Shown: positions 14,201 through 35,736 of the stretch, piece by piece
How the letters are laid out: each line of letters opens with the position of its first letter
Numbering within the stretch: position 1 is the stretch's first letter
IMG/VR virus record: IMGVR_UViG_3300024062_000022
Span: 1-37,187 of that record
Direction: 5' to 3' (one strand)
From: a virus
DNA: 37,187 bases
Position numbers and translations under genes: made by a program
Notes under the pieces: model-generated
Databases searched by the model: none
Told to the model about the DNA's origin: nothing
Seen by the model: only the letters and a program-made list of their open reading frames with translations

Positions 14201-17200
14201 GATTCTTGCTGTAATTCTAATGATTTGGTATCTACATTGAGGAGTGTAGATGATGCCGTATATGTACTTTCAAAAGATTGTAAGGTATAAGGATTTAATT
14301 TAAAGAGAGTTCCATCTCCAGTTCCATCAAAAGGACCTGATTTATGATTTGGGGTACATAGTCGGAATGAAATTTCTTTAGAAACACTTCTTACGGGATC
14401 ACTAATTACAGTTTCTCCTACAACGAAACTACCAGAAATCATTTCAACTTCTAATAATTTTGGAATAACATAATTGCTTACGTCTATACCCTCAAAGAAA
14501 GGATAGAATCTGGTTCTTGGTCTTAATCCTGTTGCATCAAATTCAATGTTTCTACTTCTAAGGAATCTAATTTCTTCTGTAAAGTTTTCAGTTGATGTTT
14601 CTGTATTTGTATCTGTTATAATTTCTTCTGGAATTATAATCGTTGATACATCACTAGTCGATTCTGTAGTTGTAGTGTTAGTTTCTGTGACAGTAGCAGA
14701 ACCAGTTTGAGGGATAAAGTTTATAACCGCTCTGGCGTTCCCATTGTTGGCATCAATAGCAGTTAAGAATTGAGTAGCTGCATCTGGAGGGAGAAGTTGA
14801 TTAATTAAGTTCCTAGATTGTTGATCAACCCTTCTTTTCCATACATTCAAATGAATAATATCACTACCAATAACATTTCGCCTCTCGCCCGTGCCTGAAG
14901 TCCTAATATTAGATGAGTTTCTATTGTTATCAAATGCAACATTATTACCACCTAATCTAGACACGCCAATAAGTAAATCCTTTGCATTTTGAATCCAATC
15001 AAAAGGTGCAACTCCTGTTTGTGGATTTGGTAGAACTTGACCTGCACCACCAACAAAAACTTCATTATCTACAGTTACATTATTGATAACTGTGATATTT
15101 TCATCTTCTCTTTCAACACGATTGACGACTTCTTGAGTAGCATTTGTTTCTCTGGCAACTTCATCAAACCAAACATCAATTGAAGGATTAAGTTGAATAG
15201 TTCCTTGCCAGTATCTAACTAAGAATGGAGTAACACTTTCAGTCTTAGTTCCGTATGGTTGCTCAAAGTAAAGAACAGAATCATAGTTTAGAGTAACCAG
15301 ATCACCCGTCTTTCTAACATTTACAGATCCCAAATCAGAGACAAAACTAGAATCTGCATTTGGTGTAAATGTACTGGTAAATCCCTCAATGACTTCTGAA
15401 CCTAATTGAAGATCCAATGAAGTTGTATAATGTTTTGGTCTTAATGTATTTGATGATGTATCAATTGCTGCTTTAAAATTAGGATTTAATAAATTATGAT
15501 ACTGATGATTACTGAAATTATCCACAAAGAATCCACACTTGAATCTATCTAATCCAGTTTCTGCATCTTTAATCATAAAGTTTTCAGTTTTGGATTCAAG
15601 CATAGAAAGAGTAGTAAATCTTTCTACTCTATGGATCCTATCTTCCAATAATGAGATGTCTTGCATTCTATATCTTTTATGCACAGACATAAAGACATTT
15701 ATATTCTTTGTATTGAATACATATGGAGGAATGAACACTGTGGCAATACTTAATCCAGTAGATATAGATTCTGCTGGTTGTGGATTTGCTGATGGTTCAC
15801 CAGAAAGAATCTGGAACTGTCCATCAGGATTTAAGAAGATAGTATCAATTCTACCAACATAAAACTCATAGTCTAAAAGAATATTTTCATTTGGCACCAA
15901 AATGTAATCAGAATACTGTCCATCAGACGCAAAATTTCTTGAATCAAATTCAAATGGAGATTTATTTGTTAATGTATATGGAGCAACTCTTGGTCTAATA
16001 TCAACAAAATCAGTTAATCTCGAACCTTGATAAAAACCAACATCATGCTTAAAGTTCTCTTGAGAATAACTATTTGCTGTAATAAATTCTCCAGTATCTG
16101 AAGAGTCAATAGTATAGTTTTGGAATATAACTGTTAATTTCTTTTTGGGAGATTCTACACCTTGCCTTCTGATAATTCTGGAGAAATCATAAAATGTATC
16201 TCTCTGCCCATCATCAAAATCAAAGTTTTGAGTAATATTTTTACTTGAAAGTATTTTTGCAGATACTATTGATTCTTCTTCAGAATCTTTCCCGGAAACA
16301 ATCTCTCCCAAAGAAAACTGACTAGTATTCAAATAAGTGTATTCTAACTTATCTACACTAACTTTAGAAGTTACTATTGCAATAGCACCTGATAATTTTC
16401 CTTCTATACGTTCACCAACAATATAATTAGAATTTCCAGAAGAACCAGTTAGTTGTAATTGCGAAAGAGTTGGATTAAAAGTATTATCAGACTCATAAAC
16501 TGCCAAAACCCTAACAACATCAGGAACATTTAAACTAATTTCGTTATCTTGTACTCTAGTTCCATACACATTACTGTAAGATAGTCCATCGTTTAAAGTA
16601 GTTGTTCCAATGCCAGAAGAAACTAATGAAGAATTTTCTATAGTTATCTTGCCAACTTTATTTAATTTTTTATTCTTTGAGTTTGGTTTTATATTCTTGA
16701 CTGTAGTGATAACTTCAGTATTACTTCCACTTGATTTTGATAAACCATTAAAAGTTACAGTTTTACCATCAAGTGACAATAAAAACTTATCTTGTCTCAT
16801 TAATTCTGTAGTGCCATCCTCATAAGAGATCAAATATCTATCTTCATCAAAAGATTCAAAAAATAAATCAGTATCATCTGCATCTATATCAATACTAAAA
16901 GAAGAACCAGTAAAACTTGCAACATTAAAAGTTCTTCTTTGAATAATTTCAGTCTCATTTAAACTAATTTGAGAGACATTTTCATGATTTAGTTTTGTTA
17001 AAAATGAGTTATTTCTAGAATTTAAACTTGGTTGATACTTAAGAATATTAGTTACTTCAAAAGATCCAGTAGGAAGAGTACCATTACAAACTCCAGTTAC
17101 GTCAGTAATTGAAGAAATTGTAAAGTTTGTTCCTGAAGCACCTACAGCAGTTACTCTATTGTAGATAGGATCACCAGTAAATTCAGTACTTGCATAAGAA

Positions 17201-19011
17201 ACAATATCACCTACGTTTACTACATTGGTAAATTTAGTATCTAATCCAACAGAGACAACACCATTATCTACTTTAAAAGTTGTTCCTGGATTTGCAGTAT
17301 ATGATCTTCTCGAAAGAACTAAATCTGCATTAAATGTAGATAATCCTACAGAATTTGTTCCATAAACAGACTTAATATCAGAAACAGAATAATCAGTTAC
17401 AGAGTTTATTAATCTACCATTATCAATTCCATTAATAACTATCTGTTCATTTTCTAGGAAATTGCCTGTAGTTTCATATAAAGTCATCTCTGTATCTAAA
17501 GATCCCAAAGCAGTTTTGAGATATCCAGTAGCGTTACTATTTTTGCCTCTAATAAATGCGGGTAATGATAATCCTTCAGAAATTGAAGTGGTTAATCCGA
17601 TAGTAGTGTATGTTCTTATATCAAAAAGACGTAACTCTAATCTACTTGTTTGATCTACATAATCACTTTCTGGAACAAAATCATAAACTCTTGCAACACC
17701 AATAGTAGTGCCAGATTGTACGTCAGGGTCTAAACCCTTACGCTCACTCTGAAGATAAACAACAGCATCAGTCCCAAGTCCTATTGATGGAGCGCCAGTT
17801 CCATTATTTAAAATTGCTAACGTTCCCGAATTATATGGTAAGTTAATTTGGGGAGATTTTTCTGTAGTTCTTGTTTTCTTTACATCTATTAATGTAGGAG
17901 AAATCGTTTCTACATCATACCCTTTGACATATGCCTTTCCTGGACCAATCTGATAAACCATTGAGTCTTCAGATGGATTATTTCCTTCTACGGTAGTCTG
18001 TTCTTCGAAATAAATTCCTCTATTTAATACTCTATCGTTAAGACTGTCTCTAACATTAACAGTAAATGGTTTTACGAAATAATCTCCAGATTCATCAAAA
18101 GTTCTTCTTGCTAATTCTTCTCTGATTAAATTATACTGTGGATTTTCATCAAAAAATTGTGGAGTTCCTCCATTAATTCTAAGAATTTCTACAAAAGAAT
18201 CTGTATTTAAGTCATCAATTTCTCTTTTTGAAAACTTAAGTTCTATCTTAAATCTATCTGCACCAGGAGCAGCAAAATTGGAAAATCCTTTGGAATTGTC
18301 GAATAGAGTATCATCTTCATCAGAATTTACAATAGTTTCTAATACATCAAATCCAACCTTATATGATGGATTAATTCCATACTGGTCTAGTAAAATTGTT
18401 TGTGTTTCTACTCTAGCAAAAACTCCTCTTACAAAGTAGACACCTTCAGATACAGTTACAGCACTACCTTCAGATATAGCATTTTCTGAAATAGTGTTAG
18501 CAAAACCTTCACCCGTCTGAATAAAAGTATTATTCCCAAGAGAAACGTCAGATTCTAAGATTAAAGTTTCTGAACTTGAGAAAGTTTTGGTGTCAAAATT
18601 ATCACCACCACTACCAAGATATTTTACATATAATGTATAATTTCCTTTTTCTGAATCTGTATCAGTTAAGAGAATTACTACTTCTGCACTAACACCACTG
18701 GTTAGACCTTTTATCTTTACTCCTTTAAGATCATTAAAGTAAACAGACACAGGAATACCATTGTATTCTGATTCAATCTGAACAGCATACAATGGATTTT
18801 CATATTTTAACTGCCCAGGTATAACTACAGACCCTTCTTTAAATAAATGCTTACCAAACTGTTCAGTTTGATTTTGTGCAATTGATTGTAGAGTATTTAA
18901 TTCTCTAGCCTGAACCGGATATCCTGGCTTAAATAATACCTTGTAATAATCTTTTTGAGGATCATAATCGTCAAAGTAAGGTGAGACGTTGAGATTGGTT
19001 TCCTGTGACAT
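11230..19011 (-). CDS. Giant DUF4815 virion protein (2593 aa), probable baseplate/fibre-attachment component
   Basis: The N-terminus (N-V-S-P-Y-F-D-D-Y ... F-K-P-G-Y-P-V-Q-A-R-E-L-N-T-L-Q-S, then EQFGKHLFKEGSVVIPGQ) is the hallmark of DUF4815 phage proteins. A second conserved stretch lies near residues 1227-1280 (F-E-Q-P-Y-G-T-K-T-E-S-V-T-P-F). A third lies near 1762-1937 (D-P-L-A-Q-S-F-Y-V, then PVYLPGPQSLEV and F-K-S-Q-N-G-S-T-W-T). Residues about 1440-1478 and 1720-1750 are Thr/Asn/Glu-rich low-complexity linkers. Gly-rich modules recur near 1997-2060 and a GNEVMEY ... RGVDGT module near 2163-2245. It lies between gp8 and gp13, where T4 has 9-12 (outer wedge and short fibre), so a peripheral baseplate or fibre-bearing role is inferred. 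The start follows TAAGGAAG. The reading frame is intact across 7.8 kb. Confidence 0.9.
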   Translation of the reverse strand: MSQETNLNVSPYFDDYDPQKDYYKVLFKPGYPVQARELNTLQSIAQNQTEQFGKHLFKEGSVVIPGQLKYENPLYAVQIESEYNGIPVSVYFNDLKGVKIKGLTSGVSAEVVILLTDTDSEKGNYTLYVKYLGSGGDNFDTKTFSSSETLILESDVSLGNNTFIQTGEGFANTISENAISEGSAVTVSEGVYFVRGVFARVETQTILLDQYGINPSYKVGFDVLETIVNSDEDDTLFDNSKGFSNFAAPGADRFKIELKFSKREIDDLNTDSFVEILRINGGTPQFFDENPQYNLIREELARRTFDESGDYFVKPFTVNVRDSLNDRVLNRGIYFEEQTTVEGNNPSEDSMVYQIGPGKAYVKGYDVETISPTLIDVKKTRTTEKSPQINLPYNSGTLAILNNGTGAPSIGLGTDAVVYLQSERKGLDPDVQSGTTIGVARVYDFVPESDYVDQTSRLELRLFDIRTYTTIGLTTSISEGLSLPAFIRGKNSNATGYLKTALGSLDTEMTLYETTGNFLENEQIVINGIDNGRLINSVTDYSVSDIKSVYGTNSVGLSTFNADLVLSRRSYTANPGTTFKVDNGVVSVGLDTKFTNVVNVGDIVSYASTEFTGDPIYNRVTAVGASGTNFTISSITDVTGVCNGTLPTGSFEVTNILKYQPSLNSRNNSFLTKLNHENVSQISLNETEIIQRRTFNVASFTGSSFSIDIDADDTDLFFESFDEDRYLISYEDGTTELMRQDKFLLSLDGKTVTFNGLSKSSGSNTEVITTVKNIKPNSKNKKLNKVGKITIENSSLVSSGIGTTTLNDGLSYSNVYGTRVQDNEISLNVPDVVRVLAVYESDNTFNPTLSQLQLTGSSGNSNYIVGERIEGKLSGAIAIVTSKVSVDKLEYTYLNTSQFSLGEIVSGKDSEEESIVSAKILSSKNITQNFDFDDGQRDTFYDFSRIIRRQGVESPKKKLTVIFQNYTIDSSDTGEFITANSYSQENFKHDVGFYQGSRLTDFVDIRPRVAPYTLTNKSPFEFDSRNFASDGQYSDYILVPNENILLDYEFYVGRIDTIFLNPDGQFQILSGEPSANPQPAESISTGLSIATVFIPPYVFNTKNINVFMSVHKRYRMQDISLLEDRIHRVERFTTLSMLESKTENFMIKDAETGLDRFKCGFFVDNFSNHQYHNLLNPNFKAAIDTSSNTLRPKHYTTSLDLQLGSEVIEGFTSTFTPNADSSFVSDLGSVNVRKTGDLVTLNYDSVLYFEQPYGTKTESVTPFLVRYWQGTIQLNPSIDVWFDEVARETNATQEVVNRVEREDENITVINNVTVDNEVFVGGAGQVLPNPQTGVAPFDWIQNAKDLLIGVSRLGGNNVAFDNNRNSSNIRTSGTGERRNVIGSDIIHLNVWKRRVDQQSRNLINQLLPPDAATQFLTAIDANNGNARAVINFIPQTGSATVTETNTTTTESTSDVSTIIIPEEIITDTNTETSTENFTEEIRFLRSRNIEFDATGLRPRTRFYPFFEGIDVSNYVIPKLLEVEMISGSFVVGETVISDPVRSVSKEISFRLCTPNHKSGPFDGTGDGTLFKLNPYTLQSFESTYTASSTLLNVDTKSLELQQESEYYGWIEENMRLIGKDSGAVAEIKSTRLVSDNSGRLIGSLFVVNPNVPENPRWINGENTFTLIDTPSLNELTQVFNKFTPNQRINESGGEAEFTSAGTLSITQTNILSTRNVTVLSSFNRNTNNITNTTTNTTTTTISGGNGSESSTDQFTVWENHDPLAQSFYVRDNTGIFLTDVEVFFETKDEELPVTLQIRPMIAGVPSNEVVPFSEVTLDPDQIILSSDGSVPTKFTFSSPVYLPGPQSLEVRSAPIASQQSSVFSVVLLSGSPNYRVYIAELGQNDIETGIKISKQSTLGSLFKSQNGSTWTPSQLEDLKYRLYRADFTTNLGLVKFFNPKLGLGNKKVTVTGTNQFLPLSKKIIVGLGSDGYDATGLVEGASLVQGTATGNLVGLAGSVTTLSVINTGTGYTTGTFTGVELETDTGDGTGAIATLEIDSSGIGTATITNGGLNYLVGDVLSLPSREFGLDVGFGGKVGVTSISVISNTLVIDNVQGEFEVGITSISYVSGVGTNVSTGATVSSIINDPYYDGLHMKITQLNHGMHSSENYVKIEKVRPLLSEVNSTLSSDITTTDTILSLDSVFGFGTFEGQTVSGSYPGYIIVGNEVMEYTNISGNSLTINTRGVDGTLAFSYSSGTRVAKYEFNGVSLRRINKVHNFAEVDRTNHPTTLNSYFIKIDNSDTDFEGSVIGKNRSIISKLYFTNTEKTGRTGSHLSNNIQYEAITPKITNMLPGKTTIKSRVRTFSGTSISGSEKSFIDNGFQNLNLDQINYLGAPCLICSQENESRFITDSPGNRSLSIELDLNTTDSRVSPVIDTVQTNVVLTSNLINSPTGGVNENANYKNDELVRSLNDDNHACIYLSKPIRLKIPANSIKVILKALHMRDNDIRVLYQLYRDDAPESAMNYELFPGFSNYRVDGDGIKRVIDPSQSDGTNDSKVIIGDDPTFKDYEYSVDDLPEFNSFAIKIVLASENQALVPQVKDLRAIATIKPKL

Positions 19012-20619: not shown

Positions 20620-20631
20620 TATTTATTTATG
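20620..20631 (-). promoter_or_regulatory. Putative late promoter(s) before gp8
   Basis: The minus strand reads CATAAATAAATA, giving two overlapping 7-of-8 matches to TATAAATA (20624-20631 and 20620-20627). They sit on the TAA stop of the 4029-aa gene (20627-20629), about 20-25 bp before the gp8 start. There is no good Shine-Dalgarno between it and the ATG. Confidence 0.5.
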
Positions 20632-23600
20632 AAGAATAAAGATCATTCTTTAATGGTTTAGATCTCTGGATAATTGCAGAAGTCTCAATTCCAGAAATTC
20701 CATTTTGATATACATCAAATTGTTTTTCATTAGATCTAGTCAAATTACTAATTCTACCCCAACTGTAATCGCCATAATAATAAGTTTGACCTAAACTTAC
20801 TAATCCATTATAATCCGAAACACTTACAACTACTTGTGCAATTGAGGTAGTTCCTACACCAGAAACTGTAGTTTGTGCAATAGAAACTTGAGAAACTCTA
20901 TAAACATTATCTATAAAAGTAGATCCAATTCCAATCACATTATTACTTTCGTCAAGTGAGGTTAATCCATATCCAACATTACTATCTCTAATAGTAAAAT
21001 AGTATCCTGTTTGGATTCCACTTATAGAAGTAGATGCTGAACCTGTTATCTCAGAATCTCTTATAAATGAATTTTCTGGAATAAACAGGTCAAAAACAAT
21101 TCCAGTAGAAGCGACTCCAACAATAGAAGTAGTTCCAATTCCAGTAACGATTCCAAAATCACCTTCATATTCTACTTTTGTGATAGTTTCAAAAGTTCTT
21201 TCTGGAAATTCAACAAGAACTGATGGTGGTGTAGATGAAGTATAACCAGAACCAGAATTTGTAAGATTTATTATAGAAACTGAAGAACCAGACAATGTAG
21301 CAGTTCCAGTAGCAGTCGTTCCAAGTCCAACTGGGGAAGAAATAATAACCGAAGGTGTTGTGCTATAACCAACACCACTCTCATTAATTTCTATGGAAGT
21401 TATAGTTCCTGTCGATGATACTACGGCAGTAGCAGCACATGAAACTAAATTATCTTGATTAAAGATTTTTATAGTTTTAAATGTATTGTCAATTGCACCA
21501 AGTTCATCAAAACTATCGAAGAAAGTCTTTAAGTTATCAACAAATAGTTCATTATCACTAATAGAAAGATCTTTTATCAAATACGCAGTTGGATTTATGG
21601 ATGGCGATAATGATTCTCTTGCCTTTGAAACCACAAATCCTCTAGAAGAACTTGCTGATCCAACAAAAGATGCTGAAGATAAGAACAAATCATTTCTTTG
21701 CTTACACCATATTGCATTTCTAAAAAGATTTTCATTATCCGAAATTCCTCTACCAGAATAAACATTAGTTCTAACTGCATCTGATGAAATAATTTCATTA
21801 ATAATTCTAGATTTTTCCTTCAGATTTTGATCATCTGAATCTAATCTAAGACTATCACCAACCTTTACATTTCCTAAAATATCAACATCCCGAACGTCAA
21901 TTTCGTTTGTTCCTTCGTAGAATAAAATTTTCGAAGTTGATACATTAGTAAGTTTTGATGACAAGTCATCAAAAGATTGAGGGGCTTCTATGAATTCAAT
22001 CACACTTCCGCCATTAAACACATAAGATTCTCCCGGAACTTGGAGGACATCATTAATGGTGATAATTAAGTTGTTTGCAAGATTGAGATTAGATCCTGGT
22101 TTTGCTTCGAATGAAGCTTGTTTTCCATCAATTTTAAGAGGGAAAAATCTCCTAGTACCATCTATTAAATCATTAATCGGGTCAATAGAAATTATCTTAC
22201 CAAAATGCCAAGAAGAAATTTCATCTTCATATGTTTCTTCGATGGAGATTTGGAATTCTTGGAATGATAATGAAGAATCTGTCGGAATTCCTTCTAACCC
22301 ATTAATAGGGACAGTGAGAATGTCATCTTTTTTGTATGAATACCCATAATTTTGTATTTCAAAGTTAAGAACACTACTATCCAAACTTACTTGAATGTTT
22401 ACAGTTGCTTGAGTTCCAACACCAGATTGTGGAGTAGAAGAACTATAAGTTAACGGTAAATTTGAATAAGGTAATGGAGTATCAAATACTATCGTTGGAG
22501 GCATAGATGATATAAATCCACCTACAGTTTCAGTAATGTCTACGGAAATAACATTACCATTATTAACAACAGCAGTCCCAATAAATTGAATAGTAGGAGA
22601 TTCGGAAATTTCAGTGGCAACACCCACATTAACTGTCTGAATTCCTACTCTGTAACCAGACCCACTGTTTCCAATACTAACAGAGGAAACTGTTCCAAGA
22701 CCAGAGATGATAGCAGTGCCACCAGCAGAAACTAATGGTTGATAACCAAACCCAGCAGAAGAACCCACAGAGACGATAATACCTCCTCTAGGTACACTTG
22801 ATGTATTGGTGTCATAAACTGCTTGTATAGGGTCTCCTGTGAAGGTTATAGAGGTTATTCCTGGAGACTCTACGAGATCATAAGAACCTTGAATTGGAAT
22901 AGTACTGTTTCTCGCAGGTTGCTGAAGAACACTTCTAATTAAAGTAATTCCATTATTAGTGGAAATTCCTGTAATATCTTGACCATCAGATTGAATAGTG
23001 AATGTGTCATCAATTCCGTTAAATTGATCAGAAACAGAATCAAAGATGTAATTATTACTATAAGGAGTTATTCCAGTTCCTTCTACTCCTGATTTCAAGA
23101 AAATTCTTCCACTGAATGTAGAAGATGTTTTTATGCTATTAAAATCGACTTCTTCTGGGTCAGATGGATTTTCATTAGGGACTTCTCCTTTAGGTGCATC
23201 TGCAAAATAAATTGTATTGTCTACAATATTATAATTTGCTTTTACTTTTCTAACAATAGACCCAGATAAATGGTTTTCAATTTCAGTTCCTAATTGAGAT
23301 CTAGTCACTAAAACATTATTTTGGATATTATTATAATTAACGACGTTTATTTTAATAATCTCACCATTAATCTTAAGTAAATCTCCACCAGATAATTGTA
23401 AGGCATCATCAACAGAAACAATGTTACTGAGTGTAGTTACGTCTGTCGTAAGTGATGTAGTTTTTGCAGTAGCAACTACTGGAGATTGAATTACATTGTC
23501 AATGGAAATAAGTGCTTTTGTATTTTGCTTTTTAGAATTAAACTGATGATTTGCCCCAACCCCAACATTTGCAATGTCCAGATAAACAGGAGGTACTGCT

Positions 23601-26600
23601 AAGGCATCAGTAGCAGATCCAGATACTCTAATTTTTAAATCATTAATCTTAACGACATAGACTGATGATGGAAGAATGTCAGTAGAACCTATTCCGGAAA
23701 TAGTTGTTGTTGATATTCCAATAGGAGATCCAGTAGCTCCCCCCTGATTATATACAACTTCTTCACCAGTACTAAAGAAATGATTAGGGACTAGGAAAGT
23801 ATCTTCATCAAGATCTATATAATCTGTGCTTGTTCCATCAAATGTTTTTTTGAAGATTGGATTATCGTTATGGGTAAGATTAAAAGATTTTTTGACATCA
23901 TTAAGAGTTCCAGTATATAATCCATAATCTTGTTTAATTTCAGATTTATTTGTTTCTATTCCAATAAAATCATACTGAGTACTACTCCCAAAAACAAATT
24001 TAAATAATCTTACTTCATAATCAATGTTTGCATCCGGAGTAAAAAATAATACAACTTTTTCGGATACACCAGAACCAATAGTTCCGGTAGATAAAATACC
24101 TAAATTAGAACCAGTATTTACAATACCATATTCTATTTGATTGGAAGTATTTGCATCTGGATTAAACAAAGATACAACTTCACTGAATTGATATTCACTA
24201 TTTGTCAAGTCCTCGATAGAAACTGCATAGTATGCTGAATTATAATCACTCCCAGCAAAAGAAGAAATTGCTACTGTAGATGGAGATGGTGAAGAAGAAA
24301 TTGCTATGAATTCGGATTCAATGTAATTTTGCAACATTGTTTCTGTTGCTACTCCAGTTGCAGAGGTATTTGCAATTCCAATAGTTAATGAATTTATGGT
24401 ATATGTAGAAGCAGTAGATACATTTGGTGTAAATGAAACTATTAGATTTGAACCAGAAATAGAAGCATCAAATGTTCCTATTCCTGTTCCATACGATGAT
24501 GAGAAATTAGATTCTAAACTTGCATAATCAGTAATGTATACATCAGTGTCATCATGAATGACATTTATTTCTACAGATTCATATTCATTATTATCCGTAT
24601 CAGAAATTAAAGTGTGAAGTTTGAGTGCTCTATAAGTGCTTCCAATAGAAACAATCGTAGAAATACCTGATGTTCCTTGTGGTAAAGTCGTTGAATGAGT
24701 ATTTAAAGATACTACATCACCTAAAGATAAAGTACCAATTCCAGAAATAGTCTCATCCAAATTAAAACTACATACATTTAAATGGTAGTCATTAATGCTA
24801 AATTTATCTGGATAGTAAAGTAATTCTATGTTATCCGAAATAATTCTTGCATCAAAATATCCCAAATCGTCTTGGGAAAATAATTTTGCATACTGATTGA
24901 TGTAGGTAAATGAATTATCATGAATTAGTGAGACTATATTAAACATAGATTCACTAGAGAATAATTTATCTGTAGAAGTCACAAGATACTTTACATATCG
25001 AACATCAGAATAATGTTTTCTGTTAACTACAGTAAAATGTTCAAATCTAGGACTACTATTGAAAAATTCTGAAATATTGTCAATGTCAAGAACTCTATTT
25101 CCAGATGATTCTCTATAATCTTGAACTAATCTGCTATTGAAAATAATTTGATTTGAGGTAGTTAAATCTCCAATTGTAAATAAATTTTCCCTAGCTAGAT
25201 CGAAATTAAATACACAATCTAAATCAATTACAGAATCTAAATTCTGAATTGCTCCTATAAATCCTAAATTTTGGTTGGTAGAAATTCCACTACTTATATC
25301 TGGAGATGATGGAATTTCAAGAGTAGAAAACTTTTTAAATCCAGAAGTATGATTTAATGAAGAAACTGGATCATTCCAGGTTTCAAAAGGAACTTCTGAT
25401 TTTACAACATATGAAAAATACTGATAATAATGATTATCATGTATTCTCTGGAATGTGTCATTTAAAAATCCCTTTTCAAACTTCCAACCTTTTCTTCTAT
25501 CAGAAGAATTTGAAATTTTATAATACCCATTTGATACTATTGAATCTTGGATAATTGATTTATTTCCACTAGTTTCTCCTATCAAAGTACTGCCAATTTT
25601 AAATGTGTCGGAAGAAGCAACTATAAGAATTCCTGGCTGTGGATTCCAATTCTGAACGACCCCTGTAGAATTGTCTGAAATAATTCTTTCACTAATAACA
25701 AAGTTGTTTTGCTTAAGTATAGAATTGAAAGTTGGGAAGTATGATTCTGGTATTACTTGAGGATTAGATAAATCCGAATTAAAGATACCTAAAATCTCAT
25801 CCGATCCTATAAGATCAGATACACTATAAGTAAAGTTTGCATTAATTCCACCTATATTTGGATCGGTTGATGTAATTTCAAAAAACTTATATTCAAAATC
25901 GGAGGAATTATATGATCTTGTAGTTACTCCTATTTCTGGTTCATCAATTGCAACTCCTTCAACAAATACTTTTGTTCCAACTGTAAATGGGAAATCTTCA
26001 ACAGAACTAAACTGGGTTTCTAAAGTAACGGTTACATTTTTTAGTACAGGATCATAAGTTACATTTGTAATTTTTAATCCATTTGAATTTGAAATTGGTA
26101 TTATTTTAGGTTGAATTTGATTAATACCTGAAGTATTCTTTAAAATGTTTACTTTTCCTTCACTGGGTATATATTCTAATTTGACATCATTTACAACTTT
26201 ATTGGTCAGTCCATCAATCACAACTAAATCTGTGTCTGTTATATAAGAAAATCCTGCTGTCAAGATTTCAATTCTATCAAAAACTGATAATGCATTTACT
26301 TCTAAAATTGTTGGTATTTTTGCAGAAGGAACAATAGTGGGATCGATAGAATAATTAAATCCTATAGAATCGAAGTAATAGTCTTTTATTTTTCCAATTG
26401 TATTAGAAGACGCATAAACATATCCATCTTTTCCAGAATCACTTTCTATATAAAGTTCCGGAATTGAAGAAAACTCAATAGTTTTATTTTTCAAGACTAA
26501 TTCAGAAATCGGTCCAGTTAAACTAGTATTGGTTGTAGAATATTTAAATGTTGCTTCAGAAGATGTATAAGATTCTTTCTCTGGGTAATTTTGAAGTTCA

Positions 26601-29600
26601 TATGAAAAAGTATTTACTCCAACATTAGTAACTTCATGAAGTCCATTAAATTTACTTGAAATTAAATTGATTGCAGAGAAGTTAATTTGATTTTTATCGA
26701 CTATTAATTCTTTTTTGGTAGGATTAGTTCCAGTTAAAATTGGACTTAACTTATAAAATAATTTTTTCTTTGTATTTGAGTTTATTTCTATTGATAGATT
26801 AGCATCAGAATCCACACCAACTTCTCCACTGGTCGTTAATTTATATTGCGTATTATTTGCAGGATAAATTTTATCTAAGAAATTCTCATCAGAGAAAAGT
26901 TCTAATTCAAATGCAGATTTTAATGAAGAACCTCCCGTAGAATAAGAAAGGCTGCTATCAGAGAGATCAAACTTTAGTTTTTGATACTCTATTAATTGTA
27001 TTTCGGGATTAACTTTTGAAACTACTCCTTCAGTTCCAGTAGACGTTAAATCTACATAAATCTTATTATTTAAGTTATAAAGATTAGTAGAAAGTTTAAA
27101 TGAATTTGAATCAACTGGCGTCACATAATAAAGGTTTTCATTTACTAACCCATCAAATCCACTAGTCTTTTCAAATAAAACTTTTTCCCCAAAAATCAAT
27201 TGATGATTATTAATGGTTACAGTATTATCCACTAAATCTACTGAGGATACATTTAGTGGATCTACTACAAATCTTCTATTGGTATCATTATATTTTACTA
27301 CTACAGTTTTAGTATTTGTAGGTAAAACTTCTACATCAACAGTAGATAATAAAGAAAGACCATGAGATTCTGCAAGAGAAACATTAACTACATTTTTTAA
27401 TAACTCAGTAGTGAGTACATTATCTTTTGCAGTTTTTAAACTATGATATGTATTAGTTCCTATTCCAGTAAAGAATAATAAATTTGCTGGAATAGTACCT
27501 ATCCCGGCATAATTACCTAATGAGTTTAATCCAACAGGGAGTGTAGATAAACCAATAGTATCATTAGTAAATTTAGTAGCATAAAGAGAATCAAAAGAAC
27601 TGAGTGATGTAGACACTCCAGAACTAGTTTCTGATACCTCTATAGAATCTCCAATGTTTGAAGAATATGAAAGTAAATCGCCATTTTTTAATTCGTGTTT
27701 TGGAAGATAAATTGCTCTGGTTGGAATTGAAATTGAAGTATTACCTACACCTGGATTTGAAAAATAAAGTGTAGATGTTATTCCAACACCAAATGATGTC
27801 CCAATTCCTACTGACTCTATAGGATTAAAATAAATTTCTTTATTTACTTCTGAATTGTATGTGTTTGAAGTTTTATAATTCAGTGTAAATTTTCTAGGAT
27901 CTTCTTTAAGAATAGAACCAGAAGAGTAAGTGCTTAATCCACTAGTTCCATTTTGTGCTCTCAAAATTCTAAATCTAGAAGACAAGAAGTCTACAGAAAG
28001 AATTTTTATGTCTTCATTTTCAATTCTATAAATGTCATTTTCTTTAACTCCCGATAAGTTACCAGAAACACTGACATAAGTAGAGATTCCAGTATCTGTA
28101 ATTGATGAAATGCCAGATGATAACCTAAATGAGTTGTTATTTACATTTACTCTTAAGTATTGGGGTGATTCTGAGGGAGAAAATACATTAACATTAGTGT
28201 CATTTACTATATTATGAGGCAGAGTTGAATAACCAACATAAAAACTCGAATTTTCTTTATATAATTCAGCATCTTGAATTGAGATTATAGATGAAATTCC
28301 TATACTCTCAATAGATTTACCCGAAATTTTAGATACTTCTCCAATTTTCTTTTTTCTATCCGTCAAAATAACATTATCACCAACTTTATATCCATCTCCG
28401 GCAATTTTTAACACTAAATTATCAATTTTTCCTGAGATTACTGATTTTACTTCAGTATCAATATTTAAATCTGAAGAATTTAAGAAATAATCATAAGTAC
28501 TTCTATCTTTGTTTTCATTGTAAGGTTTTGTATTTCTTAACCAATTTTGAGTGCTTATGTCAAGTTGGTCTTGATTTGATGCAAAGTCAAAATTAAATTC
28601 TATCTGTGATGACTTGTAAGTATTACCGATCAAATATGGAAATGCTGGTACTCTATTTCCATCTTCATTTAATTCAGATTCAAAAGTTGAGAAGTAAGCA
28701 TATACTCCATTTGGAAACTCTGGAGTAACACAAAATCTTCCATTATGCTCATCAAGATCTCCAGAATTATCAAATTCGTAATCTTCTAAGAAAAACCCTC
28801 CATTAAATGAAAGACCAAATTCACTTGCAGATGGTCTATTTTCACTACTACTAACTTTTAATGAGTATCCTGAGGAAATTAGTTTGATTCCACCAGTTCC
28901 ATCAGTATTTGTATATGCATATGGTCCATAAATTGGATTTCCGTCATATGCCCAACCAATTATTCCAGAGTGTGCTAAAATGTTTCCTTCTTGTAGATTA
29001 TCAGATAAAATGTCTGAGATAAAGGATTTAACTCCATTGCCAAAGTAAGTACTTAATAATTGTGATCTTAACGGTCTACTAGCATAAAAATGAGTATACT
29101 GAAGACCACCTCTAGGTCCAGAAATTAAATAACCATCGTCGCCATTTTTTTCTGTATTAAAGATACTTAAAATAGAAGGATACCTTTTAGGAGTTAAAAT
29201 ATTCCAAGATTGAATATTTGTGAAAAGTTTTGCTTCCTCTCCAGCAGATAAAACATCTACAGAAGTGCTACTGTTAGTATAACCTGTTCCACTAGAGGAT
29301 ATTACTACATCAATAATGCTTCCAGATTGTATTATTGGAACTAAAACTGCACCTCTTCCATCACCATTTACAACTAAAGTAGGAGGGGAATTGTATTCAA
29401 CACCAGGATTTAGAACGAATGCTGAAGTTATTCTTCCATCTTCAATAGTTAAACCAATGTCCCCATTTTCGCCAGACTTAAACGTTATGTTTGGTTGTTC
29501 TTGGTAATTAATGATTTCCTGATTTCCATATTGAATTCCACTATTTTTTACAAATATTGATTTTATTTCACCTCTAACAACTGGTTGTATCTGACATTCA

Positions 29601-32600
29601 AAATCTACCGAAGATTGATTCAATGTTGGAATCTGTAAATCTCCAATAATATCAACTATTATTGGTGGGTAATTGAAAACATGCTCTTCTCCGCCAGTCG
29701 AAGTTAAATCAATATACTGATCTGTTTCTAAAAGAAAATCTTCATTTCCACTCAATGAAATATCATAAAGTCTAAATGTATCACTATCAATAGGATTTAC
29801 AAAATATGTTGTATTAGTTGAAAGTCCACCAATAGCAGATCCATTTGCAGTATAGACAATTTTTTCTCTATACTTAAATCCATGATTTTTTATTGAAATA
29901 GTATCCGAAACTATGTTGATCTGAGATTTTGATGTAAAGGCGATTAATTCCTTGTTTGTATACCCAGATCCACCATCAATAACATTAATAGATGATACTT
30001 TTCTTTTTTTTAATTTTGATCTAAAAGATTGACTACCTAAATCACCAGAAGATGCAACAGAAATAAAATTATCATCAGAAAAATTTGTTTCTGTTGAGTA
30101 TAATTTTATTGTGGTAATACCTACAACTTTAACGTAATAAGTTGAATTTGTAGACAATCCTGAAATAGTAGCATTATTTCCTGGATCATAAATTACTTCT
30201 TCAAGATCAGAAAAATTATGTGCGTCTTCAAATGTAATCTGATTTCCACTGATAGATTGAGTATTTACAATTAATGATTTTGAATACTCATACTGTATTA
30301 AATTTGCTTCTGCAATAGCTCCAAATCCATTACCACCATTGATAACAACTTGTGGAGTTTTAGAATAATTAAATCCAGAATTAATGACATCAATTCTTTC
30401 TAATGATCCTGATACTGAAGCAGTAGCAACTGCTCCAGATCCCGAAGATGAATCTATAAAAACTTCTGGAGGGTTAATTACATCATAACCAATTCCACCA
30501 GAAGTTACTTCAATAGATTTTATTTCTCCATAATAAAGATTATCCTCAGACTTATAATTCTGAATTTCTACACCATTAATAAAAAGACCAATTGGACCAG
30601 TTATAGTATTATTTTTTTCCTTAGTGTTTATTGGAGATTGTAATTTTCTTATTAATTTTTGTGGTTGTAATAGTTTTGATTCAAATAAATTAGTTTCCGG
30701 ATTTAATTCATTAAATTTAAAAAACTCAACTTTTACTCCAACAGAGGAATAATCCGAAAAATCCAAATAAGTATTAGAAATAATCGATTCTTTATTTCTT
30801 GCAATTTTTATTGTTTTTTCATTAATTCTCTTTACGTATCCAATTTCTTGAAAGTTGGAGGATTTTAAGATTACAAGATCCCCAGTCAAGAATGAGTGCG
30901 AAGCAGATACACTCAGATTTATTTCATGTTTATTAAATGAAGAAACTAGAGCACTTAAATCAGTAATTCTAATTTTAGTATTATTATAATTTGGTAGTGA
31001 TGGTGATGTCACATACACACTTTCATCATTTCTATCATAGTAAGTATTTGAAACATTAGAATTGTAAATAGACAATTCTGGATAATTTACAATTTCTGGT
31101 TTGGAAATTAATTTACGAATAGAAGTAAAAATAAAGTTTCCTGTAGAATCTTTTGGTAGTTCACCCTGCCCTCTAATAACTAAAGTGTTTTCGTTATTGA
31201 TCGATTGAACGACACCAGTGGCATTTGTGTTTGTCAGTTCAAACTTATCTCCGATGTTAAAATCATTAACATCATAAGTTTTAATACGATAAGTATTATC
31301 TGAAGTATCCCCCAAAGCAATAATACTTTCAATCTCATATCTAGATGAGACATTATATATCCAACTATCAAATTTGAGAGAATCTAAATCACTTTTCCCT
31401 AAAGTTGATGACTTAATTATATCTCCAGGTCTTAAATTTTTATTATTGTCGTCGTATTCAAATTCTGAAATTACACCAGTAATTCTAACTCTTATTTCAT
31501 CATCACCATCAATAGCAAATGAATATGAAGTATCTTTTACTTCCTCTCTTGGATTTATTGTTTGATCGATTCCTTCACACTCAAAAAATTGATTTATGCT
31601 TTTTGATTGGTAAGTAATATTTACAATAGAACCGTTTGGTTGATTGATTATGAGTTGTCCACTATTCGGAAATCCCAACGTCGAATCAACATCTAAATGA
31701 GTGTCACCAGAAAATGCTCTAGTAACTAATCTTGTTTTTGGATTAATAGAAAAATTTCCAGTAGTTGTTCCTCTGGTTTCAATATCTTTATCGTAGTCAA
31801 AATCTATACTAATCAAATAATAAATTTTCGTTAGTGCTTCTGAAGATAATTCTGATGTATCATCCAGAAATACACTATCCCTGAAAAGATTAGAAATTTC
31901 TATTTCTTCTACTGATGTGACTGTCCCACTAGACCCATCTAAATTAAAAAGAGTTCTATTTTCTAAATCTAAAGGATTCCCTTCAATTTTTTCAACAACA
32001 AGATCTTTAGTGATTCTATAAGAAGATGCAGAAGGTTCTAGAAGATATTCCTTTGGTAAAATTATCTCGACAGGTTTCCCATAAAGAGCACCAAATAAAA
32101 TTTTAAATGATTCCTTAGTTCCTTTAGATGAATAAAAATTATTTGATTGCTTTACAAACAGACTTTCATTTAAGTCCTCAGAAAAAGATCTGTTTTCAAA
32201 TCCAGGTGTAATTTGAGTTTTTACCTTTTTAAAGAACTCTGATAATAAAATAGTATTTAAATTATTTACAATAGAATCTGAAGAATGCTCTGCAGATTCA
32301 GATTGAGAAAATGTCAGCTCATCAGTTGACGTGTTAGTATTGTATGAGGTTACTCCAGAAAATCCTCTATAACAATTTTCAAAAGTTGTTTCAGTTTTAC
32401 TCTCATAAGAAATAATCTCATCATTAATCTGTATCAAACCATAATTATCTACAAATCCTGCAGTTGATTCTACATTAATGACAGTATCAAAAAAATCAAC
32501 GTTAGCAGTTAATGTAGTAGAGTTAATCAAATTTGAAACATTATCGACCTTAACATATTGGTCGATGTTATTCATCAAATCATAAGGATTTCCCCTAGAC

Positions 32601-32716
32601 TCTAAAGACTTATAATACTGATCTAAAAATTCTGATAGTAATGGAAATTCTGATCTAACAAACTCCGGCAGCTGATTATTCAGAATGGAAGAAATCTTAA
32701 CTCTTTTCTCTAACAT
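20627..32716 (-). CDS. Giant baseplate protein (4029 aa) with gp7-like N-terminal core and YHYH-type domain
   Basis: The N-terminus holds the family signal. Residues 18-50 (E-F-V-R-S-E-F-P-L-L-S-E-F-L-D-Q-Y-Y) and 157-220 (NNFYSSKGTKESFKILFGAL, then Y-G-K-P-V-E-I) parallel the C-terminal core of T4 gp7 (Y-D-F-Y-S-T-K-G-I-E-A-S-Y-K-F-L-F). A YHYH-like domain spans about 1247-1365 (GWAYDGNPIYGPYAY ... FPNGVYAYFST). The rest is beta-rich and repetitive. Gly-rich G-S-G-Y modules occur near 735-805, 910, 1050-1160, 3340-3460 and 3775-3837. T-Y-Y-V/I-D-S modules occur near 855, 965, 1860 and 3020. RG-type modules occur near 66-125, 330-375 and 3085-3160. T4 gp7 is 1032 aa. The gene lies between gp6 and gp8, exactly the gene 7 position. 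No frameshift is seen over 12 kb. The gp7 assignment is probable; the roles of the added modules are unknown. Confidence 0.9.
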   Translation of the reverse strand: MLEKRVKISSILNNQLPEFVRSEFPLLSEFLDQYYKSLESRGNPYDLMNNIDQYVKVDNVSNLINSTTLTANVDFFDTVINVESTAGFVDNYGLIQINDEIISYESKTETTFENCYRGFSGVTSYNTNTSTDELTFSQSESAEHSSDSIVNNLNTILLSEFFKKVKTQITPGFENRSFSEDLNESLFVKQSNNFYSSKGTKESFKILFGALYGKPVEIILPKEYLLEPSASSYRITKDLVVEKIEGNPLDLENRTLFNLDGSSGTVTSVEEIEISNLFRDSVFLDDTSELSSEALTKIYYLISIDFDYDKDIETRGTTTGNFSINPKTRLVTRAFSGDTHLDVDSTLGFPNSGQLIINQPNGSIVNITYQSKSINQFFECEGIDQTINPREEVKDTSYSFAIDGDDEIRVRITGVISEFEYDDNNKNLRPGDIIKSSTLGKSDLDSLKFDSWIYNVSSRYEIESIIALGDTSDNTYRIKTYDVNDFNIGDKFELTNTNATGVVQSINNENTLVIRGQGELPKDSTGNFIFTSIRKLISKPEIVNYPELSIYNSNVSNTYYDRNDESVYVTSPSLPNYNNTKIRITDLSALVSSFNKHEINLSVSASHSFLTGDLVILKSSNFQEIGYVKRINEKTIKIARNKESIISNTYLDFSDYSSVGVKVEFFKFNELNPETNLFESKLLQPQKLIRKLQSPINTKEKNNTITGPIGLFINGVEIQNYKSEDNLYYGEIKSIEVTSGGIGYDVINPPEVFIDSSSGSGAVATASVSGSLERIDVINSGFNYSKTPQVVINGGNGFGAIAEANLIQYEYSKSLIVNTQSISGNQITFEDAHNFSDLEEVIYDPGNNATISGLSTNSTYYVKVVGITTIKLYSTETNFSDDNFISVASSGDLGSQSFRSKLKKRKVSSINVIDGGSGYTNKELIAFTSKSQINIVSDTISIKNHGFKYREKIVYTANGSAIGGLSTNTTYFVNPIDSDTFRLYDISLSGNEDFLLETDQYIDLTSTGGEEHVFNYPPIIVDIIGDLQIPTLNQSSVDFECQIQPVVRGEIKSIFVKNSGIQYGNQEIINYQEQPNITFKSGENGDIGLTIEDGRITSAFVLNPGVEYNSPPTLVVNGDGRGAVLVPIIQSGSIIDVVISSSGTGYTNSSTSVDVLSAGEEAKLFTNIQSWNILTPKRYPSILSIFNTEKNGDDGYLISGPRGGLQYTHFYASRPLRSQLLSTYFGNGVKSFISDILSDNLQEGNILAHSGIIGWAYDGNPIYGPYAYTNTDGTGGIKLISSGYSLKVSSSENRPSASEFGLSFNGGFFLEDYEFDNSGDLDEHNGRFCVTPEFPNGVYAYFSTFESELNEDGNRVPAFPYLIGNTYKSSQIEFNFDFASNQDQLDISTQNWLRNTKPYNENKDRSTYDYFLNSSDLNIDTEVKSVISGKIDNLVLKIAGDGYKVGDNVILTDRKKKIGEVSKISGKSIESIGISSIISIQDAELYKENSSFYVGYSTLPHNIVNDTNVNVFSPSESPQYLRVNVNNNSFRLSSGISSITDTGISTYVSVSGNLSGVKENDIYRIENEDIKILSVDFLSSRFRILRAQNGTSGLSTYSSGSILKEDPRKFTLNYKTSNTYNSEVNKEIYFNPIESVGIGTSFGVGITSTLYFSNPGVGNTSISIPTRAIYLPKHELKNGDLLSYSSNIGDSIEVSETSSGVSTSLSSFDSLYATKFTNDTIGLSTLPVGLNSLGNYAGIGTIPANLLFFTGIGTNTYHSLKTAKDNVLTTELLKNVVNVSLAESHGLSLLSTVDVEVLPTNTKTVVVKYNDTNRRFVVDPLNVSSVDLVDNTVTINNHQLIFGEKVLFEKTSGFDGLVNENLYYVTPVDSNSFKLSTNLYNLNNKIYVDLTSTGTEGVVSKVNPEIQLIEYQKLKFDLSDSSLSYSTGGSSLKSAFELELFSDENFLDKIYPANNTQYKLTTSGEVGVDSDANLSIEINSNTKKKLFYKLSPILTGTNPTKKELIVDKNQINFSAINLISSKFNGLHEVTNVGVNTFSYELQNYPEKESYTSSEATFKYSTTNTSLTGPISELVLKNKTIEFSSIPELYIESDSGKDGYVYASSNTIGKIKDYYFDSIGFNYSIDPTIVPSAKIPTILEVNALSVFDRIEILTAGFSYITDTDLVVIDGLTNKVVNDVKLEYIPSEGKVNILKNTSGINQIQPKIIPISNSNGLKITNVTYDPVLKNVTVTLETQFSSVEDFPFTVGTKVFVEGVAIDEPEIGVTTRSYNSSDFEYKFFEITSTDPNIGGINANFTYSVSDLIGSDEILGIFNSDLSNPQVIPESYFPTFNSILKQNNFVISERIISDNSTGVVQNWNPQPGILIVASSDTFKIGSTLIGETSGNKSIIQDSIVSNGYYKISNSSDRRKGWKFEKGFLNDTFQRIHDNHYYQYFSYVVKSEVPFETWNDPVSSLNHTSGFKKFSTLEIPSSPDISSGISTNQNLGFIGAIQNLDSVIDLDCVFNFDLARENLFTIGDLTTSNQIIFNSRLVQDYRESSGNRVLDIDNISEFFNSSPRFEHFTVVNRKHYSDVRYVKYLVTSTDKLFSSESMFNIVSLIHDNSFTYINQYAKLFSQDDLGYFDARIISDNIELLYYPDKFSINDYHLNVCSFNLDETISGIGTLSLGDVVSLNTHSTTLPQGTSGISTIVSIGSTYRALKLHTLISDTDNNEYESVEINVIHDDTDVYITDYASLESNFSSSYGTGIGTFDASISGSNLIVSFTPNVSTASTYTINSLTIGIANTSATGVATETMLQNYIESEFIAISSSPSPSTVAISSFAGSDYNSAYYAVSIEDLTNSEYQFSEVVSLFNPDANTSNQIEYGIVNTGSNLGILSTGTIGSGVSEKVVLFFTPDANIDYEVRLFKFVFGSSTQYDFIGIETNKSEIKQDYGLYTGTLNDVKKSFNLTHNDNPIFKKTFDGTSTDYIDLDEDTFLVPNHFFSTGEEVVYNQGGATGSPIGISTTTISGIGSTDILPSSVYVVKINDLKIRVSGSATDALAVPPVYLDIANVGVGANHQFNSKKQNTKALISIDNVIQSPVVATAKTTSLTTDVTTLSNIVSVDDALQLSGGDLLKINGEIIKINVVNYNNIQNNVLVTRSQLGTEIENHLSGSIVRKVKANYNIVDNTIYFADAPKGEVPNENPSDPEEVDFNSIKTSSTFSGRIFLKSGVEGTGITPYSNNYIFDSVSDQFNGIDDTFTIQSDGQDITGISTNNGITLIRSVLQQPARNSTIPIQGSYDLVESPGITSITFTGDPIQAVYDTNTSSVPRGGIIVSVGSSAGFGYQPLVSAGGTAIISGLGTVSSVSIGNSGSGYRVGIQTVNVGVATEISESPTIQFIGTAVVNNGNVISVDITETVGGFISSMPPTIVFDTPLPYSNLPLTYSSSTPQSGVGTQATVNIQVSLDSSVLNFEIQNYGYSYKKDDILTVPINGLEGIPTDSSLSFQEFQISIEETYEDEISSWHFGKIISIDPINDLIDGTRRFFPLKIDGKQASFEAKPGSNLNLANNLIITINDVLQVPGESYVFNGGSVIEFIEAPQSFDDLSSKLTNVSTSKILFYEGTNEIDVRDVDILGNVKVGDSLRLDSDDQNLKEKSRIINEIISSDAVRTNVYSGRGISDNENLFRNAIWCKQRNDLFLSSASFVGSASSSRGFVVSKARESLSPSINPTAYLIKDLSISDNELFVDNLKTFFDSFDELGAIDNTFKTIKIFNQDNLVSCAATAVVSSTGTITSIEINESGVGYSTTPSVIISSPVGLGTTATGTATLSGSSVSIINLTNSGSGYTSSTPPSVLVEFPERTFETITKVEYEGDFGIVTGIGTTSIVGVASTGIVFDLFIPENSFIRDSEITGSASTSISGIQTGYYFTIRDSNVGYGLTSLDESNNVIGIGSTFIDNVYRVSQVSIAQTTVSGVGTTSIAQVVVSVSDYNGLVSLGQTYYYGDYSWGRISNLTRSNEKQFDVYQNGISGIETSAIIQRSKPLKNDLYSS

Positions 32717-34660: not shown

Positions 34661-35062
34661 CTATCGTGTTTGCTGTAATGCAAATGATAATTGTTGCGGT
34701 GAAGCATTAATGCCTATGATTCTATAAGTTAGTGATACATCAAATTCTAAAGTAGAATAGTTTGGTGCTACTTTAACATCGATTAAATTAACTCTTGGTT
34801 CATAAAGATTGATCGATTCTCGAATTTGTCCTTTGATAGTATCTGCAGAAAACCCACTCATGTTCTCAAATAAAGAATTTGAGACAAAACTTCCAAATTC
34901 TGGATTAAAAGGTTTCTCACCAGGTTGAGTTAATACAATATTACGAATAGAACGAGAGATTGCAGTCTCATTGTTGAGTGCAATCAAGTCATTATTCAGT
35001 GGATTCATTAAGAATGACCCACTGATATCTTTAAATCCTTTGCTTATTCGTTCTAAGGGCAT
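34661..35062 (-). CDS. 25: Baseplate wedge protein gp25 (lysozyme-like fold)
   Basis: This small wedge protein nucleates the sheath at the baseplate and belongs to the GPW/gp25 family. Its 133 aa match T4 (132). Features are F-L-M-N-P-L-N-N-D-L (residues 17-26), S-I-R-N-I-V-L-T-Q-P-G-E-K-P-F-N-P-E-F-G (38-57) and Y-E-P-R-V (92-96), the family's conserved E-P-R motif. It is translated directly into gp6 and is preceded by a late-type octamer that overlaps the stop of the 80-aa gene. In T4, gene 25 lies elsewhere; gp25 next to gp6 is a common arrangement in marine T4-like phages. Confidence 0.95.
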   Translation of the reverse strand: MPLERISKGFKDISGSFLMNPLNNDLIALNNETAISRSIRNIVLTQPGEKPFNPEFGSFVSNSLFENMSGFSADTIKGQIRESINLYEPRVNLIDVKVAPNYSTLEFDVSLTYRIIGINASPQQLSFALQQTR

Positions 35063-35083: not shown

Positions 35084-35091
35084 TATTTATT
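35084..35091 (-). promoter_or_regulatory. Putative late promoter before gp25
   Basis: The minus strand reads AATAAATA followed by AG, 7 of 8 bases of TATAAATA. Its first base is the last base of the TGA stop of the 80-aa gene, and it ends 21 bp before the gp25 ATG. Confidence 0.55.
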
Positions 35092-35333
35092 CACTCAAAA
35101 AGAGGTTCTTTATCACTCCCTCTCTCAAACAACTCTCCTGAGTCATCAAAACGCTCAAAAAGTTCAGTCTCTTTCTTTTTATTAGACTTTTTAGGTGTCA
35201 TTTCATCTTCATTAATTTCTCTGAGCATTTTTTCTTCCATTGTTATCTCTCCATAATCTGTAATAAGTTTATTTGTTCCCCAATTTTTCATCATGTAGTC
35301 TACATTCCTATCGGGATTCGGTGAATTTGCCAT
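35091..35333 (-). CDS. 80-aa acidic hypothetical protein
   Basis: The start MANSPNPDRNVDYMMKNWGT follows a strong AAAGGAGA site, so the ATG at 35333 is well supported. The protein is highly charged, with a Lys-rich patch (PKKSNKKKE) between acidic stretches. It ends with three similar E/D-L-F-E repeats (E-L-F-E-R-F-D-D, E-L-F-E-R-G-S-D, P-L-F-E). It looks largely disordered, and I do not recognise a family. The repeated LFE tripeptides might be short linear binding motifs. It lies first in the unit that leads into gp25 and gp6. Confidence 0.75.
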   Translation of the reverse strand: MANSPNPDRNVDYMMKNWGTNKLITDYGEITMEEKMLREINEDEMTPKKSNKKKETELFERFDDSGELFERGSDKEPLFE

Positions 35334-35542
35334 TAGTCTCCTTTATTCGGCGTTGATACATCGTGGAGGACAAGGATTTTGTCCACAATTTTCGTAATTT
35401 TCACGTTCTTTGGCAGTTTTCCAAAAGTATTCGTCCTCTCGACTTAGTATTTAACATACCAAAGCGAGCTTCCGCTCTCTTAGCGAGCATAAGCGCCTAT
35501 AAGAAGCATAAACTCTCATCACACTCAAAGATACTAAAACAT
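35334..35542. other. Intergenic region between the terminator and the gp25 unit
   Basis: This is the longest stretch without a confident gene. It holds the residual ORF at 35343-35450, a GTTAAATA sequence (35448-35455, minus strand; 6 of 8 late-promoter bases) and a short GC-rich patch. In that patch GAGC-GGAA-GCTC can form a small hairpin (about 35467-35478, minus strand), flanked by two GCTCGCT repeats. No tRNA cloverleaf is seen. Confidence 0.5.
35343..35450 (-). pseudogene. Short Cys/Pro ORF without a normal start codon
   Basis: The minus strand encodes 35 codons ending in E-D-E-Y-F-W-K-T-A-K-E-R-E-N-Y, then ENCGQNPCPPRCINAE and a TAA. The composition (Trp, paired Cys, C-P-P-R-C) is far more protein-like than random AT-rich sequence, and I recall a similar Cys motif in small cyanophage proteins. 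The frame opens with TAA, then ATA-CTA-AGT-CGA; there is no ATG, GTG or TTG. A single change ATA to ATG would restore a gene beginning M-L-S-R-E-D-E-Y. It could be a decayed gene, use a rare ATA start, or be entered by frameshift from the ATG at 35456-35458. It lies 9 bp before the next gene's ATG. Confidence 0.4.
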
Positions 35543-35567
35543 AAAAAAGACCCCTGTAAGGAGGTCT
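35543..35567 (-). terminator. Intrinsic terminator after the 48-aa gene
   Basis: The minus strand reads AGACCTCCTTACAGGGGTCT followed by a run of T. The stem pairs AGACCTC with GGGGTCT (one G-T pair) around a six-base loop. It ends the transcript of the glycosyltransferase cluster before the gp25 unit. Confidence 0.85.
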
Positions 35568-35589: not shown

Positions 35590-35736
35590 TTAACGACCCT
35601 GACCACGATAACGCTTCTTTGCATTGTTACTGCTAGATGCAGCATACTTCGTGTGCTTCCCTTGACCCTGACGGGTATTCTTGGGTTTTGATTCGATGAA
35701 TGCTTTACCCATCAGTGACTTCTTAACTTTTGCCAT
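35590..35736 (-). CDS. 48-aa very basic hypothetical protein
   Basis: The sequence starts MAKVKKSLMGKAFIESKPKN and ends A-K-K-R-Y-R-G-Q-G-R. About a third of the residues are Lys or Arg, the rest mostly Gly, Ser, Asn and Gln, with almost no hydrophobic core. This suggests a disordered RNA/DNA-binding or ribosome-associated peptide. A GGAG site lies 9 bp upstream of the ATG. The ATG overlaps the last 14 bp of the 59-aa gene, and the gene ends 23 bp before the terminator stem. I recall close relatives in cyanophages (K-T-R-Q-G-x-G-K-H-T-K-Y ... K-K-R-Y-R-G-Q-G) with no known function. Confidence 0.8.
   Translation of the reverse strand: MAKVKKSLMGKAFIESKPKNTRQGQGKHTKYAASSSNNAKKRYRGQGR

Follow-up and report, generated by a model that had tools for sequence, protein, structure and literature searches.

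At one locus of a 37,187-base virus record, which in its full length is the stretch of DNA analysed here (the window), a protein-like reading frame stands without a start codon, and this raises the question of how such a frame arose and whether it is still used. The frame lies on the minus strand (35450-35343), opens straight after a TAA, and translates as ILSREDEYFWKTAKERENYENCGQNPCPPRCINAE followed by a stop. It has no ATG, GTG, or TTG, and the only in-frame start-like triplets among those checked are ATA at 35450 and ATC at 35357. The initial annotation had described a protein-like 35-codon frame lacking a normal start, and had offered three ways in which it could have come about, namely the loss of a start by one base change, initiation at the ATA, or frameshifting from a nearby ATG-started frame. 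Here, we find that the frame is very probably, judging from sequence comparison, a deletion scar holding the tail of a PHROG 3704 gene in a T4-like cyanophage, and that it most likely once coded for protein and is now dead.

The gene order at this locus runs from a PHROG 1574 gene through a 48-residue ORF of PHROG 516, the start-less frame, and an 80-residue ORF of PHROG 1414 to gp25, which encodes the baseplate wedge subunit, with the features described below all on the minus strand. Both immediate neighbors of the frame are intact. The upstream one (35590-35736; E = 3e-25) serves as a marker of synteny, the start of the downstream one (35091-35333; E = 3e-7) follows the stop of the frame, and gp25 (34661-35062; E = 3e-51) was our anchor for fetching relatives. 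Between the 48-residue ORF and the sequence leading into the frame, there is a terminator-like hairpin and then a T run (35548-35567), found in the same place in two relatives (L014 and L016); two terminator-like hairpins were found in all, against a shuffled mean of 0.5. Elsewhere in the window are open reading frames of 4,029 residues (20627-32716, minus strand) and 2,593 residues (11230-19011).

A tblastn search with the frame against 50,697 phage records returned 15 records, all from Synechococcus phages. The similarity lies beyond chance, with the lowest E-value across nearly the whole frame (1e-9) belonging to the tail of a protein from Synechococcus phage S-SKS1. In most of the 15 records, the match is to the C-terminus of a protein of about 230 residues, encoded upstream of gp25 and gp6, and labeled as PurM, phosphoribosylaminoimidazole synthetase, or ferredoxin. 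In S-8S53 and S-CAM9, the match is instead to an ORF of 57-58 residues, with the cysteine-rich ending alone in common. By itself, the 35-residue frame gave no match in Pfam, PHROGs, or Rfam. Together, the translation and the tblastn matches bear out the initial description of a protein-like frame without a normal start.

Relatives of the locus were fetched by scanning viral contigs for gp25, with the best 80 of 149 kept, and further loci came from two degenerate DNA patterns, the first giving at least the loci counted here and the second giving 33 stretches. Nearest among the kept gp25 relatives were L014, L015 (96% gp25 identity), and L016 (92%). A whole gene with an ATG is present in L014 and L016, and the L015 contig starts inside the gene. 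The closest relative to span the whole interval is L014 (contig 3300031957_000392), whose intact gene (1360-2064) encodes a 234-residue protein of PHROG 3704 (E = 4e-115). Residues 201-234 of this protein match the start-less frame with 82% identity (E = 1e-15).

When the window is aligned with L014, both flanks match: the leader corresponds up to ...TTAAATACTA, and the correspondence resumes at GTCGAGAGGACG. L014 1341-1963, a stretch of 623 nt, has no counterpart in the window; it consists of the 19 nt of leader that precede the ATG, the first 201 codons, and a single base of codon 202. The junction (35442-35446) is ambiguous by a base or two, and since one of its bases is unassignable, the sequence shared by the deletion ends amounts to one or two bases at most. 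Upstream of it is what remains of the deleted gene's intergenic leader (35445-35560), which aligns upstream of the intact gene in L014 and contains both the ATA and an ATG at 35457. The ATA CTA with which the frame opens belongs to the leader, and the codon after it straddles the junction; the old gene is read from REDEY on, for 32 residues and a stop (35343-35441), as established by the protein match and codon comparison with L014. Among viral contigs, the retained leader 19-mer TTTGGTATGTTAAATACTA is confined to that of L014, where it stands directly before the intact gene. No other part of the PHROG 3704 gene was found elsewhere in the 37-kb window, and the window's tail variant has no exact match in viral contigs.

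Like the PHROG 3704 proteins of cyanophages, the window frame has the C-terminal similarity, through its last 32 residues, and the same position, upstream of gp25 and before the small ORF that precedes gp25. Unlike them, it has no full-length body with a start codon (aligned copies are about 215-243 residues), since 201 of the 234 codons, the start among them, are missing from its front. With codons 1-201 and the ATG absent, we therefore regard the frame as a relic and not as a member of PHROG 3704. The scar reading is grounded in homology, synteny, both flanks, the size of the gap, and the loss of one otherwise invariant cysteine, all of them observed. The history we propose would start from a T4-like cyanophage ancestor with an intact PHROG 3704 gene of about 234 codons between the 48-residue PHROG 516 ORF and the 80-residue ORF upstream of gp25. 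In one step, a deletion of roughly 620 bp, whose ends had no more than one or two bases in common, would then have taken the start codon, the 19 nt of leader ahead of it, and the codons up to 201, leaving the final 32 codons with their stop in place beside the ribosome-binding region of the next gene. That there was one event, and that its direction was loss, we infer. Lacking a start, the fragment is probably not translated.

As for the state of the relic, it differs from L014 at 11 of 102 positions (five codons changed in meaning and three silent), compared with 7 of 243 for the next gene (one changed and six silent) and 13 of 402 for gp25 (five changed and eight silent). Set against the two downstream genes together (20 of 645), the difference is significant (Fisher p = 0.0014). 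A raised substitution rate as proof of decay was withdrawn, though, after a control with intact pairs. The tail-to-gp25 ratio is about 3.2 and 4.6 in the two usable control pairs and about 3.4 for the window and L014; since intact tails change about as fast, the rate in the relic is not counted as decay. More conspicuously, the first cysteine of the C-x2-C-x4-C-x3-C pattern, kept in 25 of 26 distinct tails, is replaced by tyrosine in the window alone. This lost cysteine aside, the 32 codons of the relic are still open, as expected for a recent scar and equally for a frame in use.

The relatives also bear on the mechanisms first put forward. A single base change that removed the start of an otherwise complete short gene is suggested by the ATA, which is one base from ATG, but in none of the relatives examined does a short gene of this sequence begin with ATG here. 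The comparison of relatives for an ATG at this position, which the initial annotation had proposed, gave a full gene that begins at an ATG some 200 codons before the relic, and a deletion of about 0.6 kb in place of a point mutation; we give the base change next to no chance. The prospect of a programmed frameshift into the relic is just as slight. The ATG in question is at 35457 (35458, as originally reported, is not an ATG), within a 29-residue ORF that begins at 35490, and although the frames overlap from 35450 to 35401, a +1 shift would be required, the relic being +1 relative to the ATG frame. Moreover, this ATG frame is only six codons (MLNTIE and a stop) in L014 and is absent from L016, which leaves no ancestral gene as the source of a shift, and neither -1 slippery heptamers nor any of a few listed +1 candidates turned up in a scan of the overlap. 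If the ATA or some other non-standard codon served as a start, the tail could be translated into a small protein rich in cysteine; the open frame would agree with this, and the same four-cysteine ending is found on a different small ORF in S-8S53, S-8S55, S-CAM9, L216, and L220, and can therefore exist apart from the PHROG 3704 gene. However, the annotated small ORFs bearing it elsewhere begin with Met, whereas the ATA is non-coding leader of the old gene in L014, where it is not conserved as a start position. With no GGAG-like ribosome-binding site discernible by eye in the 20 nt upstream (AGCTCGCTTTGGTATGTTAA), and with the first cysteine lost, a live gene of this kind is highly improbable. 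A related reading, in which the four-cysteine tail moves between genes as a C-terminal cassette with a function of its own and the 32-codon remnant is still translated as a micro-protein by way of the ATA or coupling, has one observation in its favor, namely that the ending sits on an unrelated small ORF in S-CAM9, S-8S53, S-8S55, and others, and we hold it to be quite improbable.

Alternatively, the phage could keep an intact gene across which the assembler had joined in a mixed population. Here, the window is a virus record classed with the IMG/VR records, and its junction has no exact match in a second contig among viral contigs. Nevertheless, the genes flanking the junction are undamaged and stand in their usual order, and the tail has substitutions of its own, including the otherwise invariant cysteine. 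Moreover, the gene is missing from about half of the related loci, which makes its loss a common occurrence. An assembly artefact, the one doubt left about the scar, is accordingly unlikely, and we retain the deletion scar as our reading. Point mutation, ATA start, and frameshift are all needless for explaining the frame; the coding character and the lost start noticed at the outset stand, and the three mechanisms give way to the full gene of the relatives.

How often the gene or its tail occurs was surveyed at several levels. Among the 80 gp25 loci, the body of the gene is upstream in 35, absent in 32 (a number that may take in copies diverged past the tblastn cutoff of 1e-5), and beyond reach in 13 that are too short, making 35 of 67 testable. 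With near-equal numbers of loci having and lacking it, the PHROG 3704 gene evidently comes and goes, and is thus optional. In the collected loci, the EDEYFWKT/DENYFWKT motif is found at 169 places, with 150 or more open residues upstream at 138, a cut by the contig end at 28, and a short frame at three (the window, the same contig under a second id, and L127). By tblastn, tails were located at 215 places in loci that are partly redundant, since one contig can stand under several ids; 179 have a body adjacent, 15 are cut by a contig end, and 21 are orphans. Three orphans are the window and the same contig under two further ids, one is L127, and one is L230, where the four-cysteine ending is fused to another ORF. 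Six are four-cysteine endings on other small ORFs (L002, L005, L008, L216, L220, and L239), and the remaining ten are weak matches (E = 2e-5 to 0.05). We ascribe these ten to a non-coding element because nine are in loci that have it (L008, L024, L126, L136, L150, L185, L192, L216, and L238, with L238 and L024 seen by eye) and L239 is the S-CAM9 genome again. Matches of L238, L230, and L024 to one tail query were considered as relics and rejected, being this same element.

In L127 (IMG/VR 3300020179_000364), an orphan tail that lacks a start and is of the common type (IFTKNRVENSYERLAMGNEDEYFWKTAQERDSNPEKSSDFH; 12642-12767, minus strand) stands directly after a complete but different allele, and is likely the scar of an allele replacement. 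It resembles the window in being a start-less tail at the same locus, and differs in that a complete PHROG 3704-like copy is beside the scar, whereas in the window the body is replaced by nothing. The four-cysteine ending (e.g., CENCGQNPCNPRCINAE) also closes a different small ORF (MGIHPTDLG...) in L002 (862-1038), L005 (726-902), L008 (681-854), L216, and L220, as if it were a swappable cassette. In Sullivan et al. (2010; PMC3037559), purM, by the label used there, is listed for 8 genomes of 16 cyanophages, and of two phages isolated together one has it and the other lacks it. The S-SM2 record has its own PHROG 3704 copy, labeled T4-GC 171 purM.

The non-coding element is a conserved sequence (GGGATAGYAACCCC-nn-AAAAAGTTCTGATTT..AAATCAGGAG) that, in the loci read, is located shortly before the ATG of the ORF preceding gp25, with examples in L013 (840-900), L024 (2757-2817), L127 (12623-12683, minus strand), and L238 (8881-8941, minus strand), among others. 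It is not in the window. There are 81 matches in 81 of about 245 partly redundant loci, and one copy each in three of four phage genomes searched. The element consists of two hairpins, one with a conserved 8-nt loop and the other containing the ribosome-binding site. Covariation, assessed on 46 of 57 distinct copies (11 were left out by the analyst), scored 0.189 against 0.078 when shuffled (0/500), with strong covariation at two pairs that the fixed search pattern does not cover (A-U 23/C-G 21 and A-U 35/U-A 10); the invariance of the core is partly built in by that pattern. Rfam gave nothing at the element in seven loci, nor did the element appear among the papers listed by a literature search. 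Because its position varies among phages, overlapping the 3' end of the "PurM" gene in some and following that gene in others, it is probably a cis-regulatory RNA, and may merit more attention than the gene scar.

Cyanophage proteins of PHROG 3704 are labeled "PurM" or phosphoribosylaminoimidazole synthetase in several GenBank records, and "ferredoxin" in RefSeq and PHROGs. With the intact relative as query, Pfam gave two sub-threshold, unrelated matches and no AIR synthetase, NCBIfam gave no match, and a sequence search of the PDB gave nothing better than E = 0.21. Its AlphaFold model is weak (pLDDT 60.9, pTM 0.58) and mostly strands, and with a model of this quality AIR synthetase was absent among the 50 structure matches listed. 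The PDB structures listed reach a TM-score to the query of no more than about 0.2, which is meaningless, and three better matches in a viral structure library are two nameless entries and an uncharacterized protein from an uncultured phage. In the absence of an AIR-synthetase match in Pfam or NCBIfam and of a useful PDB match, "PurM" looks like an inherited label, and PHROG 3704 is possibly a mislabelled auxiliary metabolic gene. The label matters, since by it the gene would count as an auxiliary metabolic gene of purine synthesis; a 2023 survey (PMC9983427) treats the gene labeled purM in cyanophages as one of purine synthesis.

Taken as a scar, the frame no longer counts as a candidate for frameshifting or for initiation at a non-standard codon, and it illustrates that start-less, coding-like frames arise as scars of deleted or swapped optional cyanophage genes. 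The interval from the 48-residue PHROG 516 ORF to gp25 is a site of gene turnover. A known parallel is the cyanomyovirus S-PM2d (PMC4503421), with a spontaneous deletion that removed 13% of ORFs under laboratory passage. The likeness is that a dispensable region was lost from a T4-like cyanophage, and the difference is one of scale and setting, 13% of ORFs in the laboratory against the larger part of one gene in a genome from the environment. The window is thus an ordinary new instance of gene loss by deletion at a T4-like cyanophage turnover site.
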